This document shows, piece by piece, positions 38,439 through 48,325 of a stretch of DNA of 64,000 bases. The notes beneath the pieces are model-generated. The model saw only the letters and a program-made list of their open reading frames with translations. It made no database searches and was not told the DNA's origin. This DNA is from Paractinoplanes lichenicola. GTDB taxonomy: Bacteria > Actinomycetota > Actinomycetes > Mycobacteriales > Micromonosporaceae. The stretch's first letter is position 1; each line of letters starts with the position of its first letter. The translations under genes and the position numbers were made by a program. The stretch covers positions 496,001 to 560,000 of the forward strand of contig NZ_JAENHO010000002.1 in assembly GCF_016785085.1 (NCBI RefSeq). Direction: 5' to 3'.

Positions 38439-38577
38439 CCAGACCGGTCTGTTTGCCGGCGTCCGGGCTGGTCGAATGCATGCTGCGGCACCCCTCGGCT
38501 TAGAGCGTTTGGCCGATTTAAGCCGAAAAAACCGTTCCGCCGGTAACGAGGCGATAGGCCGGTTAGATTACGGAAGG

Positions 38578-38603
38578 CGAGAAGCCGGATCTTTCTCGGT
38601 TTT
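38578..38603 (+). terminator. Weak hairpin plus T-run in the leader of the Calx-beta gene
   Basis: CGAGAA (38578-38583) pairs with TTCTCG (38593-38598) and GTTTT follows. It lies 140 bases after the preceding stop and 45 bases before the riboswitch. It could end the upstream transcript or fold in the leader RNA. A TAGATT box at 38564-38569 is a possible -10 for the riboswitch transcript. Confidence 0.35.
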
Positions 38604-38648: not shown

Positions 38649-38732
38649 GTGCGGTACCCGAACAGGCAAACCCGCCGCGAGGCGGAGACGCAAAGCCAGG
38701 GGCCTCCCCCGACGGAGGCAGCCCAGCCGCCG
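38649..38732 (+). ncRNA. Cyclic di-GMP-I (GEMM) riboswitch
   Basis: The hallmark GEMM core is present: ACAGGCAAACC, a P2 stem CCGCC/GGCGG capped by a GCGA tetraloop, then GACGCAAAGCC, GGGGCCT, a P3 hairpin (GGCCTCC/GGAGGC) with receptor-like AGGCAGCC, and a closing GC-rich P1 strand (CCGCC) that can pair with GGTGCGG at about 38648. The tetraloop and receptor pairing is diagnostic for the class that binds c-di-GMP. It ends just before the ribosome-binding region (GAAGGAG) of the Calx-beta gene, so control of translation initiation is likely; no terminator follows. The 3' boundary is approximate. Confidence 0.85.
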
Positions 38733-38749
38733 AAGGAGAACAGAAGGAC

Positions 38750-41653
38750 ATGGCCTATTCAGAAGCCCATGCGGCGACGAGCGGCTCCGTTCCGTTCGCG
38801 CTGTTTGGCAAAAAGCCCGTGCGGATGGTGCTTTCTGCCGCCGTCGCAGCTGCCATCGGCGTTGCGCCCGCACTCGTGTATTCCTCGCCGGCGATGGCCG
38901 ACCCGGGTGACCTTGTGCTCACGCCCCAGTCGACCACGGTCGCTGAGAACGGCATTCTCACAATCGACTACAAGTACAACGGGGCGGCAGTCAACGCCAG
39001 TCCCGCTTCGTACTCGATCAGCGCTGTTCCGTCGGTCAGCGCGAACCACGCCAGCTCCACGGACTTCGCACTCACCAGCGCCGCCACTATCTCGGTCGAC
39101 ACCACCCACACCACTGGCACCATCACGGTGAAGGCGGCGGCTGACCAGATCTACGAGGGTGACGAGACCTTCGTGGTCAAGGCGGTCAACGGGAGTGACG
39201 ACACCGCGACGACGGCGGATCTGACGATCACCGACGGTGACGCGCCGTCCTTCACTCTGACGACGCCGGCGTCGACGACGCCGGCTCAGGAAGCCGCGGC
39301 CGGCTCGCTGACCCCGGCCAAGGCGACGGTCACGGCGGCGCTGCCCACGGGTTGGACGGCCGAGAAGGCCTACACGGTCAACCTGACCACTCTCGACGGC
39401 ACCGCTAAGGTCGCGACCGACTACACGGCGCTGGCGAACAAGGTCGTGACGATCCCGGTCGGCGGCACTTTTAAGGCCGAAGATGTGACGATCACGAGCG
39501 ACGGCCTGAAGGACAGTGCGCTCGTCGAGGACTTGACGGTGCTGGGCACCGGTCCTGCGAGCAATGTTCTGCCGCAGCAGGTGAAGGTCCAGATCAAGGA
39601 CGACCCGAAGGATGCGGTCGACCCCGTTCTGAGCATTGCCAAGGCCGCTGACGCCAAGGAAGGCACGAGCGCCAGCTTCAAGGTCACCGCCGACCACGGC
39701 TCCGACACCGAGATCAAGGCCTGGTGGTCGTCGCTGACCACCACGCCGATGACCGGCCACGGCACCGCGACTGCCGGCACGGACTTCGACTACGACGCCG
39801 ACGCGACCAAGCGGTTCGTCACCGTTCCCGCCGCCACGGCGCCGAATCCGGCGGCAGGCACGGTGGCCGCCAATATCCTGATCCCGCTCAAGAAGGACGA
39901 CGTCTACGAGCAGCCCGAGGACTTCACCATCGGGCTGGACAAGGCGACGGGTGCCACGGTCGGCACCCCGGCGTCCGCCATGGGCACGATCATCGACGAG
40001 AAGGACCTGACCACCGGTGTCACGCCGGTCAGCATCGACGAGGGCAACAACGGCCGCAAGCCGGCGACCTTCACCGCGACGCTGAGCCAGGCCGCTTCCA
40101 CCCCGGTCACCGTGATGTGGAAGACGACCCCCGGCACCGCGACGGCCAACGTCGACTACATGCCGACCAGCGGCACGGTCACCTTCCCGGCCGGCTCCAC
40201 CAAGCAGACGTTCACCGTCGACATCAACGGTGACCTGATGGACGAGCCGGACGAGACCTTCAGCATCGCCACCTCGTCGGAATTCGTCGGCTACAGCCCC
40301 TCGACGGCCCTGATCACGATCAAGGACGACGACGCCGCCCCGACGTTCAAGTTCGACAGCGTGACGATGGACGAGGGGAACATGCCGCACGCGGTCCTGC
40401 TCCCGGTCAAGCTGAGCAACCCCAGCTCCCAGGCGATCTCGTTCGACGTCACGGACACGACGGGTTCCGGCGCCGGTGCGGCCTCGGACACCTTCAACGT
40501 GAACACCATCGGCTCCGGTGACTACAGCCTGCTGACCGAGGGCAACGCGACGGTGAACATCCAGGCCGGCGAGACCGAGGGTTACGTCGTTGTTCTGGTG
40601 AACGGCGACAAGATCCACGAGAAGGCGGAGTGGGCGAAGTTCACCGCCACGCCGTCGGCCGGCACTATCGCCAACCTGGCGACGGGCGCCGCGGCCACGA
40701 CGTCGACGCTGACCCTGTCGAACGATGACAAGGCGCCGGACCTCGAGATCAACAATGTGACCGGCAAGGAAGGCGAGACGGTCCAGGTGACCGGTGTCGT
40801 CAGCGGCTGGGCCGACGACGACATCAAGCTGACCGTCGTCTTCGCCGGCGGCGCGTCGGACGGCAAGCGGGCCGCGAGTGCGGACGACTTCACCAACCCG
40901 GGTGCCACCCCGTGGACCATCGCCAAGGGCACGGTCGAGGGCACTGTCATCGACGTGGCCAAGGTTCCGCTGCTCGTGACGCCCGGCGCTGAGCCGGCCG
41001 AGACCATCCGGGTCACCGGTTATGGCGAGGGCAACGTCGGCACCGTGACCGAGGGTGTCATCACCATCGCGGCCCACGGCACCGCGCCGGAGGAGCCGGG
41101 TGAGCCCGGTGAGGCTCCCAAGCCGACCATCATGGCGAAGCCCACGAAGGTTGTCGGCCCGTCCAAGGTCGAGGTCGAGGGCACTGTTGCCCCCGGCAAG
41201 CAGGTCCAGCTGTGGAGCGCGACCGTCGGTGGCGGCGCCCTCAAGTGGGTCAAGAACGTGACCGCTGACGAGGACGGCTACTACTGGTTCGAGCAGAACA
41301 TCACCTGGGGCACGCGCTTCGCGACGCTCTCGCAGGGCGTGAAGTCCAACGAGATCGCCGTGTGGGTGCAGCAGGACCCGGTGTTCGTGGTCTCGACCTC
41401 GACCAAGGGTCAGCTGAACCTGGGCGTCAAGGGCATGCCTTGGGGAGCCGGTCAGACCGCTGCCGTCCAGCAGTGGGTGAACGGCGCCTGGGTGACCAAG
41501 TGGAGCGGCAAGACGGGCGCCGACGGTGTCTGGCGCGGTTCGCCCAAGTTCAAGTCGGGCACCTCGGTCGTCCTGCGGGCGTGGGTTGGCGGCGAGCCTG
41601 GCAAGGGCACCCTGCCGGCCTTCACCGACCAGATCAAGTCGACCGTTAAGTAA
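38750..41653 (+). CDS. Large secreted Calx-beta repeat protein
   Basis: A 967-residue exported protein. An unusually long N-terminus (about 24 residues) precedes a signal peptide (VRMVLSAAVAAAIGVAPALV, cleavage near AMA-DPG). Six to seven Calx-beta domains follow, with the repeated logic of a SVxEG-type start, a middle ATAxxDYxxxxGTVTFPAG, a DxxxExDETF segment and a final IxDDD. The clearest is at about 418-531. Two C-terminal Ig-like or carbohydrate-binding-like modules (about 790-967) contain WSATVGGG and QWVNGAWVTKW. Calx-beta domains bind Ca2+ and occur in adhesins. The c-di-GMP riboswitch suggests a biofilm, attachment or developmental role. No anchor is present. Confidence 0.88.
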   Translation: MAYSEAHAATSGSVPFALFGKKPVRMVLSAAVAAAIGVAPALVYSSPAMADPGDLVLTPQSTTVAENGILTIDYKYNGAAVNASPASYSISAVPSVSANHASSTDFALTSAATISVDTTHTTGTITVKAAADQIYEGDETFVVKAVNGSDDTATTADLTITDGDAPSFTLTTPASTTPAQEAAAGSLTPAKATVTAALPTGWTAEKAYTVNLTTLDGTAKVATDYTALANKVVTIPVGGTFKAEDVTITSDGLKDSALVEDLTVLGTGPASNVLPQQVKVQIKDDPKDAVDPVLSIAKAADAKEGTSASFKVTADHGSDTEIKAWWSSLTTTPMTGHGTATAGTDFDYDADATKRFVTVPAATAPNPAAGTVAANILIPLKKDDVYEQPEDFTIGLDKATGATVGTPASAMGTIIDEKDLTTGVTPVSIDEGNNGRKPATFTATLSQAASTPVTVMWKTTPGTATANVDYMPTSGTVTFPAGSTKQTFTVDINGDLMDEPDETFSIATSSEFVGYSPSTALITIKDDDAAPTFKFDSVTMDEGNMPHAVLLPVKLSNPSSQAISFDVTDTTGSGAGAASDTFNVNTIGSGDYSLLTEGNATVNIQAGETEGYVVVLVNGDKIHEKAEWAKFTATPSAGTIANLATGAAATTSTLTLSNDDKAPDLEINNVTGKEGETVQVTGVVSGWADDDIKLTVVFAGGASDGKRAASADDFTNPGATPWTIAKGTVEGTVIDVAKVPLLVTPGAEPAETIRVTGYGEGNVGTVTEGVITIAAHGTAPEEPGEPGEAPKPTIMAKPTKVVGPSKVEVEGTVAPGKQVQLWSATVGGGALKWVKNVTADEDGYYWFEQNITWGTRFATLSQGVKSNEIAVWVQQDPVFVVSTSTKGQLNLGVKGMPWGAGQTAAVQQWVNGAWVTKWSGKTGADGVWRGSPKFKSGTSVVLRAWVGGEPGKGTLPAFTDQIKSTVK

Positions 41654-41665
41654 GTAAAGAACGAA

Positions 41666-41704
41666 GACGGGGGCAGCCACTCGGCCGCCCCCGTCGCCTT
41701 TTGT
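41666..41704 (+). terminator. Rho-independent terminator of the Calx-beta gene
   Basis: GACGGGGGC (41666-41674) pairs with GCCCCCGTC (41687-41695) and a TTTT run follows (about 41699-41702). It lies 13 bases after the Calx-beta stop. It may also serve the convergent ABC exporter operon, which ends at 41712. Confidence 0.85.
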
Positions 41705-41711
41705 TCAGAGC

Positions 41712-43667
41712 TCAGTCGACCTCGGCCACCGCCTGCGCGAACTGCGCCGAGTACAACCGCGCGTAGGCCCCACCGGCCGCGATCAGCGACTCGTGGGTGC
41801 CCTGTTCGACGATGGACCCGTTCTCCATCACCAGGATCACGTCGGCGTCGCGGATCGTCGACAAGCGGTGGGCGATCACGAACGACGTGCGGTTCTCGCG
41901 CAGCGTCGCCATCGCCCGTTGGATCAGCACCTCCGTACGGGTGTCGACCGAGCTCGTGGCCTCGTCGAGGATCAGGATCGACGGCTCGGCCAGGAATGCG
42001 CGGGCGATCGTGATCAGCTGCTTCTGGCCGGCGCTGACGTTCGAGCCCTCCTCGTCGATCACCGTGTCGTAGCCGTCGGGCAGTGTGCGGCAGAACGCGT
42101 CGACGTGGGCCGCCTCGGCCGCCGCCTGCACCGCGGTCATGTCGAACGAGTCGGCCCCGTACGCGATGTTCTCCGCGATCGTGCCGCCGAACAGCCACGT
42201 GTCCTGCAGCACCATCCCGATCTCCTCGCGCAGCTGTTCGCGCGGCATCGTGGCGATGTCGACCCCGTCGAGCAGGATCCGCCCCGAGTCGACGTCGTAG
42301 AAGCGCATCAGCAGGTTGACCAGCGTGGTCTTGCCCGCACCGGTCGGCCCGACGATGGCCACGGTCTGACCGGGCGCGACGGACAGCGACAGGCCGGAGA
42401 TGAGCGGCTTGTCGGGAACATAGCGGAACGAGACGTCGTCGAAGACGATCTCACCCCGTACGGGAGGAAGGTCCTTGACTGCGGGATCGGGCGACTGCTC
42501 GGGCGCGTCGAGCAGGGCGAACACCCGCTCGGCGGAGGCGACACCCGACTGGATCAGGTTGGCCATCGAGGCGACCTGGGTCAGCGGCTGGCTGAACTGC
42601 CGCGAATACTGGATGAAGGCCTGCACCTCGCCCAGCGACAACGACCCCGAGGCCACCCGCAGGCCACCGACCACGGCCACCAGCACGTAGTTCAGGTTGC
42701 TGATGAACATCATGGCCGGCTGGATCAGGCCGCTGATGAACTGGGCGCGGAACGACGACGCGTACAGCTTATCGTTGTGCTCCTGGAAGACGGCCGAGGC
42801 CTCGTCCTGCCGGCCGAACACCTTGACCAGCGAGTGCCCGGTGAACATCTCCTCGATGTGCCCGTTGAGCCGGCCCGTGGTGGCCCATTGCGCGACGAAG
42901 TTGGGCTGCGAGCGCTTGCCGACGGCGGTGGTCACGAAGAACGACACCGGCACCGTGACCAGCGCGATCAGGGCGAGCAGGGGAGAGATCCAGAACATCG
43001 CCCCGAGCACCCCGACGATCATCAGCAGCGACGTGATGAGCTGCGCGAACGTCTGTTGCAGGGTCTGCGCGATGTTGTCGGTGTCGTTGGTGGCCCGGCT
43101 CAGCACCTCGCCGCGGGGCTGCTGGTCGAAATACGACAGGGGCAGCCGGGACAGCTTCGCCTCGACCTCCTGCCGCAGGTGATAGACCGCCCGCTGCACC
43201 ACGGTGGCGGTGATCCGGCCCTGCAGGATGCCGAACAGCCAGGCGAACACGTAGACGATCGCGACCCAGGCCAGCACCCGGGCCAGCTGGTCGAAGTCGA
43301 TGCCCCGGCCCGGCGTGAAGTCGAGCGCCGAGAGCAGGTCGGCCTGGGTGTTCTCGCCCCGGGCGCGGAGGGCCCCGATCACATCGTTCTTGGTTTCCCC
43401 GGGCGAGAACATCTGCCCGATCACGCCGCGGAAGATCACGTCGGTGGCGTGGCCGAGCAGGTAGGGGCCGATCACGGACAGGGCGACGCTGACCGCGCCG
43501 GCCAGCATCACGAAGCCGACCAGCACCCGCTGCGGTTTGAGCCGGCGCAGCAACCGCAGGGTCGAGCCCTTGAAGTCCTGCAGTTTCTCGGTCGGGGCGG
43601 GCCCGGCCATCATCCGGACGGCGGGCGGTCCACCCACCGGCGGTCCGGGTCGACGAGGCGCGGTCAT
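41712..43667 (-). CDS. ABC exporter, fused permease-ATPase (second half-transporter)
   Basis: A 651-residue half-transporter with six helices (about 45-345) and an ATPase domain with Walker A GPTGAGKTTLVNLL, signature NVSAGQKQLITIARAF, Walker B ILILDEATSSVDTRTE and switch HRLSTIRDAD. The N-terminus is Pro-rich. Its start overlaps the stop of the other half-transporter (ATGA), so they form a heterodimeric exporter, probably for drugs or lipids. Both ATP sites look complete in this subunit, including Glu after Walker B (DEATS). Confidence 0.94.
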   Translation of the reverse strand: MTAPRRPGPPVGGPPAVRMMAGPAPTEKLQDFKGSTLRLLRRLKPQRVLVGFVMLAGAVSVALSVIGPYLLGHATDVIFRGVIGQMFSPGETKNDVIGALRARGENTQADLLSALDFTPGRGIDFDQLARVLAWVAIVYVFAWLFGILQGRITATVVQRAVYHLRQEVEAKLSRLPLSYFDQQPRGEVLSRATNDTDNIAQTLQQTFAQLITSLLMIVGVLGAMFWISPLLALIALVTVPVSFFVTTAVGKRSQPNFVAQWATTGRLNGHIEEMFTGHSLVKVFGRQDEASAVFQEHNDKLYASSFRAQFISGLIQPAMMFISNLNYVLVAVVGGLRVASGSLSLGEVQAFIQYSRQFSQPLTQVASMANLIQSGVASAERVFALLDAPEQSPDPAVKDLPPVRGEIVFDDVSFRYVPDKPLISGLSLSVAPGQTVAIVGPTGAGKTTLVNLLMRFYDVDSGRILLDGVDIATMPREQLREEIGMVLQDTWLFGGTIAENIAYGADSFDMTAVQAAAEAAHVDAFCRTLPDGYDTVIDEEGSNVSAGQKQLITIARAFLAEPSILILDEATSSVDTRTEVLIQRAMATLRENRTSFVIAHRLSTIRDADVILVMENGSIVEQGTHESLIAAGGAYARLYSAQFAQAVAEVD

Positions 43668-45400
43668 GCGGTGGCCTCCTGAGCCGTGAGCTGCGAAAGA
43701 ACGATTTCCCGGTACGTGGCGTTGGTGTCCATGAGCTCGGCATGAGTGCCGGTGCCGGCCACCCGGCCGTCGTCGAGCACCACGATCCGGTCGGCGTCGC
43801 GGATCGTGCTGACCCGCTGGGCCACGATCACCACGGTGGCGTCGGCGATGTGGTCGGTCAGCGCGGCCCGCAGCGCGGCGTCGGTGGCGTAGTCGAGCGC
43901 CGAGAACGAGTCGTCGAACAGGTAGATCTCGGGCCGGTGCACGAGCACCCGGGCGATCGCGAGCCGTTGCCGCTGGCCGCCCGACACGTTCGTGCCGCCC
44001 TGGGCGATCGGGGCGTCGAGCCCGCCCTCCATGCGCTCGACGAAGTCACGGGCCTGGGCCACCTCGAGCGCCTGCCACAGCTCCTCGTCGGTCGCGTCGG
44101 GGTTGCCGTACCGCAGGTTGGAAGCCACCGTGCCGGTGAACAGGTAGGGCCGCTGCGGCACCAGGCCGACCAGCCGGGACAGCAGGCCCGGGTCGAGCTC
44201 GCGCACGTCGACGCCGTCCACCAGCACCTGGCCGCCGGTCGCGTCGAACAGCCGCGGCACCAGGTTGAGCAGCGTGGTCTTGCCGCTGCCGGTGCTGCCG
44301 ATGATCGCGGTGACCTCGCGCGGCCGGGCCGTCAGGCCGATCCCGCACAGCACCGGCGACTCGGCGCCGGGGTAGTGGAAGTCGACGTCGCGCAGGTCGA
44401 GCCGGCCGTGCTGGGTGACCTCGGTGACGGGCCGGGCCGGCGGGGCGACGCTCGACTCCGTGTCCAGCACCTCCTCGATCCGCTCGGCGCAGACCTCGGC
44501 CCGCGGGATCATCACGAACATGAAGGTCGCCATCATGATCGACATGAGGATCTGCATGAGGTAGCTGAGGAACGCGGTGAGCGCGCCGATCTGCATCGCG
44601 CCGGAGTCGATGCGGTGGCCGCCGAACCAGAGCACGGCGACGCTGGACAGGTTCACGATCAGCATCACGCTCGGGAACATCAGCGCCATCAGCTTGCCGG
44701 CCTTGAGCGACACGTCGGTCAGCTCGTCGTTCGAGACCTCGTAGCGCTCCTGCTCGCGCTCGTCGCGGACGAACGCGCGGATCACCCGGATGCCGGTGAT
44801 CTGCTCGCGCATGACCTGGTTGACCCGGTCGATCCGCTTCTGCATCGAGCGGAACAGCGGCCGCATCCGCACGATGATCAGCGCCACCACGGTGACCAGG
44901 ATCGGGACGATGACCAGCAGCAGGCCCGAGAGCGGCACGTCCTGCCGCAGGGCCAGCACGATGCCGCCGACGCACATGATCGGCGCCGAGACCATCAGCG
45001 TGAAGGTCATCAGCACGAGCATCTGGATCTGCTGGACGTCGTTCGTGGTGCGGGTGATCAGCGAGGGGGCGCCGAACTGCCCGACCTCGCGGGCCGAGAA
45101 CTCCTGCACCCGCGAGAAGATCGAGCCCCGCACGTCGCGTCCGACCGCCATGGCCGTACGGGCGCCGAAGTAGACCGCGACGATCTGGGTGGCGATCTGG
45201 CCCACGGTCACGGCGAGCATCCAGCCGCCGATCTGCATGACGTAGCCCGTGTCGCCCTTGACCACGCCGTTGTCGATGATGTCGGCGTTGAGCGTGGGCA
45301 GATAGAGCGTGGCCAGGGTCTGCAGGAACTGGAAGAGCACGACGAGCGTGATGTCTCGCCGGTAGGGCGGTAGATGTTTCCTGAGTAGCTGGATGAGCAC
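43664..45400 (-). CDS. ABC exporter, fused permease-ATPase (first half-transporter)
   Basis: A 578-residue half-transporter. TM domain about 1-310, then ATPase with Walker A GSTGSGKTTLLNLV, signature NVSGGQRQRLAIARVL, Walker B EIYLFDDSFSALD and H-loop position AQRVSTIRDAD. Two substitutions stand out: the catalytic Glu after Walker B is Asp (FDDSFSA) and the switch His is Gln (AQRVS). This is the degenerate site typical of heterodimeric exporters (TM287/288-like), paired with the consensus subunit downstream. The GTG at 45400 shares one base with the TetR stop (TAGTG). Confidence 0.93.
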   Translation of the reverse strand: MLIQLLRKHLPPYRRDITLVVLFQFLQTLATLYLPTLNADIIDNGVVKGDTGYVMQIGGWMLAVTVGQIATQIVAVYFGARTAMAVGRDVRGSIFSRVQEFSAREVGQFGAPSLITRTTNDVQQIQMLVLMTFTLMVSAPIMCVGGIVLALRQDVPLSGLLLVIVPILVTVVALIIVRMRPLFRSMQKRIDRVNQVMREQITGIRVIRAFVRDEREQERYEVSNDELTDVSLKAGKLMALMFPSVMLIVNLSSVAVLWFGGHRIDSGAMQIGALTAFLSYLMQILMSIMMATFMFVMIPRAEVCAERIEEVLDTESSVAPPARPVTEVTQHGRLDLRDVDFHYPGAESPVLCGIGLTARPREVTAIIGSTGSGKTTLLNLVPRLFDATGGQVLVDGVDVRELDPGLLSRLVGLVPQRPYLFTGTVASNLRYGNPDATDEELWQALEVAQARDFVERMEGGLDAPIAQGGTNVSGGQRQRLAIARVLVHRPEIYLFDDSFSALDYATDAALRAALTDHIADATVVIVAQRVSTIRDADRIVVLDDGRVAGTGTHAELMDTNATYREIVLSQLTAQEATA

Positions 45401-45993
45401 TAGTGGGTCCCCCGTCGGATGAGCAGTCCGTCGAGCAGCAGGGATACCGTGTCCTCGCCGCTGAAGTTGTCCGGGTCGCCGAACGGCCCGTACGTGTTGG
45501 CGCCGCAGAAGAGCAGCAGCAGTGAGGCCACCGCCGCCGGTGGCCGGCGCAGTTCCTCCGCGCCCGGCGTGATGACCTCGGTGAGCGCCGTGTGCAGCCG
45601 CTCCCGGTTCGCGACCATGTGGGCCGGTGCGTCGCCGGTCATCACCAGCTTGCGCGCGGCCGTCATGATCTGTGCGTTCTCCGCGAACCGGGCGTGCAGC
45701 AGTTCGGCCGCCCGCACGAGCCGGTCGCGCAGCGGGGCCGACCGGTCGATCGCGGCCAGCGCGTCGACAGTCGGCTGGGCGTCCAGCGCCTTGATCACCG
45801 AGCACACGACCAGCGACGTCTTCGTCTCGAAGACCCCGAAGATCGTGCCCTCGGCGACGCCGGCGGCCTGGGCGATCTGCCGGGTGCTGACGTCGACCCC
45901 GTGCTCGTGCAGCAACGGGATCGTGGCGGCGATCAAGGCCTCGCGCCGCTCCTCGGGCGCGAGCGCGGGCACACGCCGTCGTTTGTTCTCCAC
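45400..45993 (-). CDS. TetR family regulator of the exporter
   Basis: A 197-residue repressor. The HTH is REALIAATIPLLHEHGVDVS, then TRQIAQAAGVAEGTIFGVFE, with a helical ligand-binding half. The GTG at 45993 is preferred; an upstream GTG at 46023 would place the start inside the operator. The regulator is the first gene of the operon and is translated into the exporter genes through TAGTG, so it presumably represses its own operon until a transported compound binds. Confidence 0.9.
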   Translation of the reverse strand: MENKRRRVPALAPEERREALIAATIPLLHEHGVDVSTRQIAQAAGVAEGTIFGVFETKTSLVVCSVIKALDAQPTVDALAAIDRSAPLRDRLVRAAELLHARFAENAQIMTAARKLVMTGDAPAHMVANRERLHTALTEVITPGAEELRRPPAAVASLLLLFCGANTYGPFGDPDNFSGEDTVSLLLDGLLIRRGTH

Positions 45994-46008
45994 GTCCGAC
46001 CACTCTAA

Positions 46009-46026
46009 TGAGCGAGCACTCACTCA
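46009..46026. promoter_or_regulatory. TetR operator candidate
   Basis: TGAGCGAGCACTCACTCA is an 18-bp near-palindrome (two mismatched pairs plus the centre) of the TGAGTGAG-type bound by many actinobacterial TetR repressors of exporters. It lies 16-33 bases upstream of the chosen TetR start. A second short palindrome, TGACATTTGTCA (46032-46043), overlaps the start of the divergent GGDEF-EAL gene. Confidence 0.65.
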
Positions 46027-46042
46027 GCCACTGACATTTGTC

Positions 46043-48325
46043 ATGACCCCCGAAAGACTCAGGTTGCAGAACGGTGAGCCGATCGAGGCGCCCGTGCGGA
46101 ATGTCGAGATGGACGATCACACTGCCGAGTACTGGGCGCGCCAGCTGCGCATCGGGGCCGGCATCGCGGCCGTGGTCACCGCGATCGGCGGCGCCCGCAT
46201 CGCGATGGGCTGGGACCCGCTGGACCGGTGGTGGCTGATCCCGGTGGCGCTGGCCGTACTGGCCCAGCTGGCCCTGTTCTCGCTGCCGTGGAGCCGGCTG
46301 GTGCGCGACGGGCGCACCAAACGCTGGCTGGTGGCCTGGTGGTTCGGCGAGCTGCCGGTGATGCTGCTGTTCGGCTGGGTCGACCCCGACGGCTGGATGC
46401 TCTATCTGCCCGCCGCGGTGCTGCTGCTGGTCACGGCGGCCGCCCTCTGGTCACCCCGCTTCGTCATCGGCCTCGGCGTGATGGCGATCGGTGGCTACGC
46501 CGTCCTGCTCCCGGTCCGCGCGGGTACCACCGCCGGCACCACCTTCGTGCTCGTCGCGATGATGGCCTGCGTGGTCGGCCTGACCGCGATCTACGCGAAG
46601 AGCCGGCGCTGGCTCGACGACCGCCGCCAGGCCACCGAGCACCGCGCCGAGACGATGCTGGCCGCCTCGGCCGACGCGGTGATCGCCATCGGGCCGGACA
46701 CCACGATCCGGTACGCCAACGAGTCCGTCGGGCAGCTCCTCGGCTTCGAGGCCGCCGCGATGGTCGGCAACCGGCTCAACGAGCTGCTGCCCGACGAGCG
46801 CCGGGTCCTGGCCGGCACGTTCCTGGACGATCTGCTGGCCCTGCCGACCGGGCAGAGCAGGCGGGCCGAGTCGCAGCTGCGCAACGCGGAGGGCGAGTGG
46901 GTCTACCTCGACGTGCTCGCCACCAACTGGATGGACGACCCGGACATCGAGGCCGTCGTGGTGAGCCTGCGCGACATCGGCGCCCGCCGCGCGCTCGAGG
47001 ACAAGCTGCACCTGCAGGCGTACACGGACTCGCTGACCGGCATGCCCAACCGCGCCCTGTTCCGGCGGCGGCTGGAGGAGGCCGTGTCGGCCCCCGGCGG
47101 CAACCCGGTCACCGTGCTGCTGCTCGACCTCGACGACTTCAAGCTGGTGAACGACAACCTGGGGCACAGCGCGGGCGACGACCTGCTCTCGACGATCGCC
47201 GGTCGGCTGCGCCGGCACGTACGCCCCTCCGACGTGCTCGCTCGCCTCGGCGGCGACGAGTTCGCGATCCTCATGCACGACCTCGAACCGGGTGACGCCG
47301 CCGCGCTGGCCGAGCGGCTGGTCCGCACGATCCGCGAACCGATCCGCCTGGCCAGCCGCGACGTCACCTGCTCACTGAGCATCGGCATCGCCACCTCGAC
47401 CGCGTACGGGGAGAACGGCTCCTCGGCCGACCACCTGCTGGGCAACGCCGACCTGGCGATGTACGCCGCCAAGCGGGCCGGCCGCAACGGCTACGCCGTC
47501 TTCGACCCGACCATGACGATGTCGGTGCTGGAGGAGGCGCAGCTGCGCAGCGACCTGGAGCACGGCCTCGAGCACGACGAGTTCCTGGTGCTCTATCAGC
47601 CGGTGGTCGACATGCAGACCCAGCGCGTCACCTCGGTCGAGGCGCTGGTGCGCTGGCAGCACCCGCGCGACGGGCTGCTCGGCCCCTATCACTTCATCGC
47701 CGCCGCCGAGGCCAACGGCCTGATCGTGCCGCTCGGCCGGTGGGTGCTGCGGGAGGCCTGCACCCAGCTCGCCCGTTGGCGGGCCGAGTCGCCGGCCGCG
47801 GCCGACCTCAAGATCAACGTCAACCTCTCGGCCCGGCAGTTCCAGTACGCGGGCCTGGTCGACGACGTCGCCGCCGCGCTCGCGGACGCCGGGGTCGACG
47901 CCGCCTCGCTCACCCTCGAGATCACCGAGTCGATGCTGATGGAGGACATCGAGACCGCCAAGCGCACCCTGCACGCGCTGCGCGGGCTGGGCGTACGCCT
48001 GGCCATCGACGACTTCGGCACCGGCTACTCGTCGCTCAGCTATCTCAAGCAGCTCCCGGTCGACGTCATCAAGATCGACAAGACGTTCGTCGACGACGTG
48101 CACATCGACGACGACGACGTGGCCCTGGTCGACGCCGTGGCCGGCCTCGGGCAGGCGCTCAAGATGCAGACCGTGGCCGAGGGTATCGAGACCGACGAGC
48201 AGTGGTCGACGCTGCGCAGCATCGGCATCGACCACGGGCAGGGCTACCTGTTCGGCAAGCCCGCGGCCCCGGCCGAGATCAACGCCCTGCTGGCCGGGGT
48301 GAGCGCCATCTCCGCCCACGGCTGA
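46043..48325 (+). CDS. GGDEF-EAL c-di-GMP turnover protein with PAS sensor
   Basis: A 760-residue membrane protein. About six helices (about 35-185) are followed by a PAS domain (about 210-330; ASADAVIAIGPDTTIRYANE), a GGDEF domain with an intact active-site motif (RLGGDEFAIL, 403-407) and an EAL domain with EAL at 533-535, DDFGTGYSSLSYLK and KIDKTFV. Both catalytic motifs are intact, so it may make and break c-di-GMP, with PAS or membrane signals deciding which. The start is uncertain: ATG 46043 or GTG 46094 (GAGG five bases upstream). The nearby riboswitch makes the Calx-beta gene a plausible output. Confidence 0.92.
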   Translation: MTPERLRLQNGEPIEAPVRNVEMDDHTAEYWARQLRIGAGIAAVVTAIGGARIAMGWDPLDRWWLIPVALAVLAQLALFSLPWSRLVRDGRTKRWLVAWWFGELPVMLLFGWVDPDGWMLYLPAAVLLLVTAAALWSPRFVIGLGVMAIGGYAVLLPVRAGTTAGTTFVLVAMMACVVGLTAIYAKSRRWLDDRRQATEHRAETMLAASADAVIAIGPDTTIRYANESVGQLLGFEAAAMVGNRLNELLPDERRVLAGTFLDDLLALPTGQSRRAESQLRNAEGEWVYLDVLATNWMDDPDIEAVVVSLRDIGARRALEDKLHLQAYTDSLTGMPNRALFRRRLEEAVSAPGGNPVTVLLLDLDDFKLVNDNLGHSAGDDLLSTIAGRLRRHVRPSDVLARLGGDEFAILMHDLEPGDAAALAERLVRTIREPIRLASRDVTCSLSIGIATSTAYGENGSSADHLLGNADLAMYAAKRAGRNGYAVFDPTMTMSVLEEAQLRSDLEHGLEHDEFLVLYQPVVDMQTQRVTSVEALVRWQHPRDGLLGPYHFIAAAEANGLIVPLGRWVLREACTQLARWRAESPAAADLKINVNLSARQFQYAGLVDDVAAALADAGVDAASLTLEITESMLMEDIETAKRTLHALRGLGVRLAIDDFGTGYSSLSYLKQLPVDVIKIDKTFVDDVHIDDDDVALVDAVAGLGQALKMQTVAEGIETDEQWSTLRSIGIDHGQGYLFGKPAAPAEINALLAGVSAISAHG

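Follow-up and report, generated by a model that had tools for sequence, protein, structure and literature searches.

A predicted c-di-GMP-I riboswitch aptamer ahead of the gene for a predicted secreted Calx-beta protein and its recurrence in the Actinoplanes group

The locus described here lies in a 64,000-nucleotide stretch of the Paractinoplanes lichenicola genome (contig NZ_JAENHO010000002.1, positions 496,001 to 560,000; the whole stretch is called the window, and coordinates count from its first letter), where an open reading frame (ORF) of 967 amino acids (aa) at 38750..41653 (+), predicted to encode a secreted Calx-beta protein, is preceded by an aptamer of the cyclic diguanosine monophosphate (c-di-GMP)-I, or GEMM-I, riboswitch class. 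When the whole window was searched against Rfam, the sole family above its gathering score was RF01051 (c-di-GMP-I), whose match at 38655-38734 (+) scores 49.7 bits (E 1e-6; gathering cut-off 35) and is complete, spanning model positions 1-87. It is also the sole RF01051 match in the 10.67-Mb genome to which the window belongs. A first-pass annotation of this DNA had placed a GEMM-I aptamer in the leader of the ORF and had called for an Rfam covariance-model search; that search was run, and the full-length match above the cut-off bears the proposal out. The motifs quoted at that time were found as well, namely GGCAAACC at 38665-38672, a GCGA loop at 38677-38680 and GACGCAAAGCC at 38687-38697. 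The folding energy of the leader is ordinary (z = -0.14) and the aptamer would have been missed by energy alone; because folding energy gives no signal, the case for the aptamer is carried by the covariance model and by the comparison of relatives.

RF01051 matches at E <= 0.001 were collected from 354 genomes of the same family, of which 67 form the genus of the window, which we infer to be Actinoplanes sensu lato (Paractinoplanes, Winogradskya, Amorphoplanes, Couchioplanes and others). Matches are present in 60 of the 354 genomes (59 above the cut-off), and all 60 belong to that genus. The name of the genus comes from a protein scan that returned named records: of its 29 loci, 25 fall in the Actinoplanes group and the other 4 are Calx-beta genes of unrelated metagenome-assembled genomes. 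The surroundings of all 82 matches in the 60 genomes were read, and the matches split cleanly into two classes. Class A, to which the window belongs, comprises 59 loci in 59 genomes, where the aptamer stands 13-16 nucleotides (nt) ahead of an ORF of 704-1478 aa of the same kind as the window protein; class B comprises 23 loci in 23 genomes, ahead of a protein of 130-150 aa, and 22 of these 23 genomes also carry class A. Identity of the class A aptamers to the window copy has a median of 91% and a lowest value of 73.5% (n=58), and the core word GACGCAAAG is retained exactly in 50 of the 59 copies. The earlier description of such a combination as little explored in actinobacteria has to be narrowed, because GEMM-I is not rare there: RF01051 was found in 155 of 396 genomes sampled across the phylum and in 43 of 394 sampled across the class. 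This kind of RNA is thus no novelty in Actinobacteria; what seems new is that it is coupled with this protein across a genus. No report of a c-di-GMP riboswitch in Actinoplanes was found among the listed titles and abstract openings of a mostly open-access literature; in the accessible main text of three Actinoplanes missouriensis papers (PMC13293333, PMC13251363, PMC10733313) the terms 'riboswitch', 'c-di-GMP' and 'Calx' do not occur, and the accessible part of PMC11626248 cites a c-di-GMP riboswitch paper solely within a table, in the row for a siderophore cluster.

Covariation was measured in an alignment of the 82 aptamers at the 20 helix pairs given by Rfam, with 500 shuffled and a series of slid controls. 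Standard pairing was seen in 91.1% of cells, both-side changes were present in 117 cells compared with 34.8 after shuffling, and the covariation score was 0.305 compared with 0.132, a value that 0 of 500 shuffles reached and that lies above the best slid control (0.081). Covariation at these 20 pairs clearly exceeds most of the controls, and the contrast between classes A and B supplies much of the signal. Base 20 (Vc2 numbering), the ligand-selectivity position, is G at 38665 (+) of the window (column 11 of alignment A5) and in all 59 class A copies. The hairpin at 38671..38686 (+), capped by the GCGA loop of GNRA type, is paired in 98.1% of cells with both-side changes in 3 of 6 pairs; the window has a C-A mismatch at pair 38671-38686, and some relatives carry loops other than GNRA. 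P3, the third aptamer helix (38694..38728, +), has 12 pairs, 7 of them with both-side changes, and 86.1% of its cells are paired. A GGAG ribosome-binding site (38735..38738, +) follows with its first base right after the aptamer match, as it does at every one of the 59 class A loci. The 967-aa ORF opens with an ATG at 38750, which leaves 15 nt between aptamer and start codon. The assignment to RF01051 is based on the score above the cut-off, compensatory changes in relatives, G at base 20 and the GNRA-capped hairpin. Compared with the riboswitches of that family, the window aptamer has the same full-length extent, core, GNRA hairpin, P3 and G20; class A differs in two basal P3 pairs that are consistently mismatched, in a ribosome-binding site that directly abuts the aptamer, and in the controlled gene, which encodes a Calx-beta protein.

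With a probability of roughly 0.8, we consider that this RNA is a c-di-GMP-I aptamer, predicted from sequence comparison to bind c-di-GMP, which likely gates the translation of one predicted secreted protein. In the proposed mechanism a promoter near 38564 would drive the leader, the Calx-beta gene would form a single-gene transcript, c-di-GMP would bind the aptamer in its leader, and the aptamer would gate ribosome access and hence translation. Gating of translation is likely because the ribosome-binding site begins on the base right after the aptamer, and the most economical interpretation is that access of the ribosome is controlled, because the start codon is 15 nt away and a consensus scan returned no terminator-like hairpin between aptamer and start codon. 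As to the sign of control, the P3 helix would keep the strand CCUCC off GGAG and expression would be ON at high c-di-GMP, towards which we lean slightly. The putative -10 element of the leader promoter is TAGATT at 38564..38569 (+), within TTAGATT at 38563-38569; this heptamer occurs at most 260 nt upstream of the aptamer at 42 of 59 class A loci in conserved surroundings, and of the 17 loci that lack the exact heptamer, 13 have GGTTACAGT in its place. A sigma-70 scan found no promoter; transcription is predicted to begin near 38575. At the other end, a GC hairpin followed by a T run at 41666..41695, read directly from the sequence, is likely a terminator between the convergent Calx-beta and ABC genes, and since this hairpin separates it from the opposing ABC gene, the Calx-beta gene is likely transcribed alone. 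A terminator-like hairpin with a short T run is also present at 38578-38598, between the putative promoter and the aptamer, and may be due to chance.

Several observations weigh against translational gating by a ligand-binding aptamer. In modelled ensembles the accessibility of the ribosome site was 0.48 in the free leader and 0.44 with the aptamer folded, and was higher when folded in 18 of 59 leaders; moreover, an off state with CCUCC paired to GGAG had on average an energy some 4 kcal/mol higher than that of the free fold, and came within 3 kcal/mol of it in only 17 of 59. Two of the five covariation measures were unremarkable (both-side-changed pairs 10 of 20 compared with 8.2 after shuffling, and further pair types 20 compared with 20.6), class A is mismatched at two basal pairs of P3 (columns 43-81 and 46-78 of A5), the exact word GACGCAAAG is missing in 9 of 59 class A copies, and with 32.5 bits the class A copy L112 falls below the cut-off. 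Moreover, three genomes retain the gene although their aptamer is not intact: the leader has an internal deletion that keeps the ribosome site (G052), has a decayed core (G062) or has been replaced (G063). These three are among the 8 genus genomes that lack a class A match, beside the 59 that have one; in G026 and G070 of the remaining five a diverged aptamer is present that RF01051 does not report, and in G017, G025 and G031 neither an aptamer match nor a Calx-beta relative was found at the syntenic locus, which counts in favour of the pairing. Because of these eight genomes, the statement has to be that the Calx-beta gene is almost always under the aptamer, yet can exist without it.

An alternative is that the aptamer acts on transcription, in a Rho-dependent manner, or on mRNA decay, and not directly on ribosome access. 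It draws support from the fact that the folding models resolve no switch between Shine-Dalgarno and anti-Shine-Dalgarno pairing; it is opposed by the short distance to the start codon, which holds no terminator-like hairpin, and by the GGAG that abuts the aptamer in 59 of 59 loci, and we regard it as unlikely. A switch explained by thermodynamics was itself rejected, as the ribosome site showed no consistent change between free and aptamer-folded ensembles. Two further folding candidates were set aside. A strand swap around the GCGG ahead of the aptamer was rejected since its upstream partner scarcely beats shuffled sequence (mean 4.75 compared with 4.43), and RNAalifold gave a mixed fold for the longer class A leader and was not used. 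For the GCGG strand, a helix of at least 5 pairs is available downstream in 55 of 59 class A leaders, which are related sequences and not independent cases. GCGGU at 38651-38655 could pair with GCCGC at 38726-38730 and close the aptamer, a helix that would overlap the strand beside the ligand-contact bases.

An RNA that no longer senses a ligand and is retained solely as a structured leader would account for G052 and G062, which keep the half with the ribosome site while the core is lost, and for the conserved P3 mismatches. This is quite improbable in view of the invariant G20 in 59 of 59 copies, the exact GACGCAAAG in 50 of 59, and the both-side changes in half of the pairs of the GNRA hairpin. 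The mismatched basal pairs of P3 (43-81 and 46-78; window 38694-38728) are paired in most class B copies, as if the strand had a second role.

The neighbourhood of the class A unit is conserved, with two ABC genes (ABC and ABC2) and a TetR gene all present at 55 of 59 loci. Beyond TetR, the window encodes a PAS-GGDEF-EAL protein at 46043..48325 (+), assigned by Pfam and by reading of its motifs, which is a neighbour outside the conserved unit. The first-pass annotation had described a GGDEF-EAL enzyme with intact active sites 4.4 kb downstream, and GGDEF, RxxD, EAL, DDFGTGYSSL and KIDKTFV are indeed all present; its start at 45419 is unlikely because that stretch overlaps the TetR gene at 45400-46023 on the other strand, and the start is likely the ATG at 46043, giving about 760 aa. 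That annotation had moreover proposed that a riboswitch controls a secreted protein of the surface or matrix, and had joined this to a local c-di-GMP circuit in which this enzyme would be the dedicated regulator of the riboswitch. The first part is strongly favoured by conservation, covariation and position of the aptamer; the second, although the enzyme adjoins the aptamer in the window and at 14 other class A loci with its catalytic motifs intact, we consider highly doubtful. Presence of the gene could be called at 50 of the 59 class A loci (9 could not be judged), and what follows TetR is GGDEF-EAL at 15 of the 50, a lipoteichoic acid (LTA)-synthase-like gene directly at 25, and neither at 10, so that the enzyme is absent from 35. 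It also follows TetR in G026, G062 and G070, where the aptamer is diverged or decayed, and so stands beside the decayed aptamer of G062. Three genes on the opposite strand intervene, and enzyme and riboswitch are therefore not in the same transcription unit. In the genome of the window, GGDEF matches amount to 89 rows, or roughly one every 120 kb, although two of the rows seem to be parts of a single split domain match; at this density a GGDEF gene within 10 kb is unremarkable. From its presence at 15 of 50 loci, its presence at the three diverged or decayed loci and these 89 rows, we conclude that GGDEF-EAL is a neighbour in part of the genus and not a conserved partner. The c-di-GMP read by the aptamer would be drawn from the cell pool, likely fed by many GGDEF enzymes and not specifically by the product of the neighbouring gene.

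The protein behind the riboswitch begins with signal-peptide-like residues 1-50 (judged by eye), and the Calx-beta domains claimed for it earlier are recognized by Pfam PF03160 at 96.2 bits compared with a cut-off of 27 (1.7e-27). Its sequence relatives in the PDB are the Calx-beta domains of Na/Ca exchangers. The C-terminal part (about residues 787-967; 41108..41650, +) is modelled by AlphaFold2 as a pair of immunoglobulin (Ig)/fibronectin type III (FnIII)-like beta-sandwich domains with a mean predicted local distance difference test (pLDDT) score of 90.0. With the last ~200 residues Foldseek returned 218 hits at E <= 0.001; the best 50 of the 218 are mostly Ig or FnIII proteins, and the top matches among these 50 are two-domain Ig proteins with a best TM-score of about 0.5. 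No sortase motif or C-terminal membrane helix was seen by eye in the window protein, and of the 74 plasmid records that a search with the protein returned, not one spans 80% of it. A match at E <= 0.001 is present in 66 of the 67 genus genomes, not always at the same locus. Best-segment identity to the window protein has a median of 34.6% (n=58), compared with medians of 80% and 83% for the neighbouring ABC proteins of the same loci (n=56 each), and the repeats likely diverge fast beneath a slowly changing leader. Codon conservation just after the start codon is slightly raised (0.61 compared with 0.44-0.58 in 500 of 1711 pairs), which is not decisive. Its likely role is that of an extracellular adhesin or a component of the matrix. 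A Calx-beta repeat protein tied to c-di-GMP has been described in Vibrio cholerae, where the adhesin FrhA is reported to be controlled through LapD/LapG proteolysis and through transcription (PMC6890996); the window gene differs in its RNA leader and in its actinomycete host. Very long Calx-beta frames (~2,400-3,600 aa) are found near the class A locus in eight genomes (G034, G038, G046, G051, G053, G059, G071 and G072), and in L063 such a frame lies upstream of the aptamer.

It is scarcely credible that class A binds a different cyclic dinucleotide, for instance 3',3'-cyclic GMP-AMP (3',3'-cGAMP). In favour of such a ligand, PMC9262584 describes the position equivalent to base 20 as a factor in selectivity and not as a hard filter; against it, all 59 class A copies have G20, and an A-to-G change at nucleotide 20 turned a cGAMP riboswitch into a c-di-GMP one, as PMC6456294 reports. 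In the cases studied in PMC6456294, PMC10333796 and PMC9262584, base 20 matters for whether c-di-GMP or cGAMP is selected, and it is at this base that class B varies, with G in 12, A in 6 (L038, L040, L049, L083, L084 and L102) and C in 5 copies (L090, L093, L097, L098 and L099) (n=23). Each of the 11 genomes whose class B copy has A20 or C20 also holds a class A copy, which has G20. In a phylogeny of the 23 signal peptidases encoded beside class B, the five C20 copies cluster with weak node support (0.248) and the A20 copies are spread. The cGAMP-type GEMM-Ib riboswitches of Geobacter (PMC6456294 and PMC8835794) belong to the same aptamer class and share A20 with 6 of the 23 class B copies; the window copy differs from them in its G20. 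It is conceivable, as a tentative proposal from these base counts, that sister GEMM-I riboswitches read two signals: class A with G20 would read c-di-GMP for the Calx-beta gene, and class B, its base having drifted among G, A and C, might in some species respond to cGAMP, or to a dinucleotide for which no RNA sensor is known so far.

Among Actinobacteria, Actinoplanes species are described as the richest in GGDEF domains (PMC10746217), and they are noted for many GGDEF proteins (PMC10333796); no described Actinoplanes output that reads c-di-GMP through RNA was found in the accessible, mostly open-access literature. In 59 of the 67 genus genomes a riboswitch stands ahead of a fast-changing secreted protein, an arrangement that would provide a direct and testable output of c-di-GMP. 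The occurrence of G, A and C at the ligand-selecting base of class B amounts to a natural mutational series within one genus for the evolution of riboswitch specificity, useful also for asking whether a second dinucleotide signal exists in the Actinoplanes group, and the variation at this base may be more novel than the class A finding.

The class B unit, which consists of the riboswitch, a gene for a small secreted protein (MRNMxQLLGGVAVAGVVAAGSTAFTA...) and a signal-peptidase-like gene, is conserved in 23 of 23 loci; examples are L040:3093-6666 and L089:3090-5183. A relative of the L089 signal peptidase is present in all 23, its match starting 85-148 nt past the end of the frame of the small protein. 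Three of the 23 signal peptidases (L032, L040 and L089) were compared with family models. The archaeal signal peptidase model TIGR02228 gave 58.2 (L032), 47.5 (L040) and 45.4 (L089) at a cut-off of 51.85, DUF5305 was above its cut-off in L032 and L089 and just below it in L040, and the SipW model NF046067 matched, among these three, in L032 alone, with 24.1 at a cut-off of 190. The small protein is modelled with a pLDDT of 66.7 and has no Foldseek hit at E <= 0.001, and no match to TasA was found by family, sequence or fold. A matrix module of comparable type is tapA-sipW-tasA of Bacillus. Class B resembles it in coupling a small secreted protein with a signal-peptidase-like gene, apparently of the archaeal/SipW kind, and differs in a SipW score far below the cut-off, in the absence of a TasA match and in the GEMM-I riboswitch ahead of the unit. 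At L032:6416-8509 (-) the class B signal peptidase is fused to a GGDEF domain with the altered active-site motif RLEADNF, and a close relative is encoded in L036. Finally, a class-B-like protein (MHHKSKLLGALAIAGVIATAGSAFTASN...) is encoded downstream of a GEMM-I aptamer at L185, in a genome from another family of the class.

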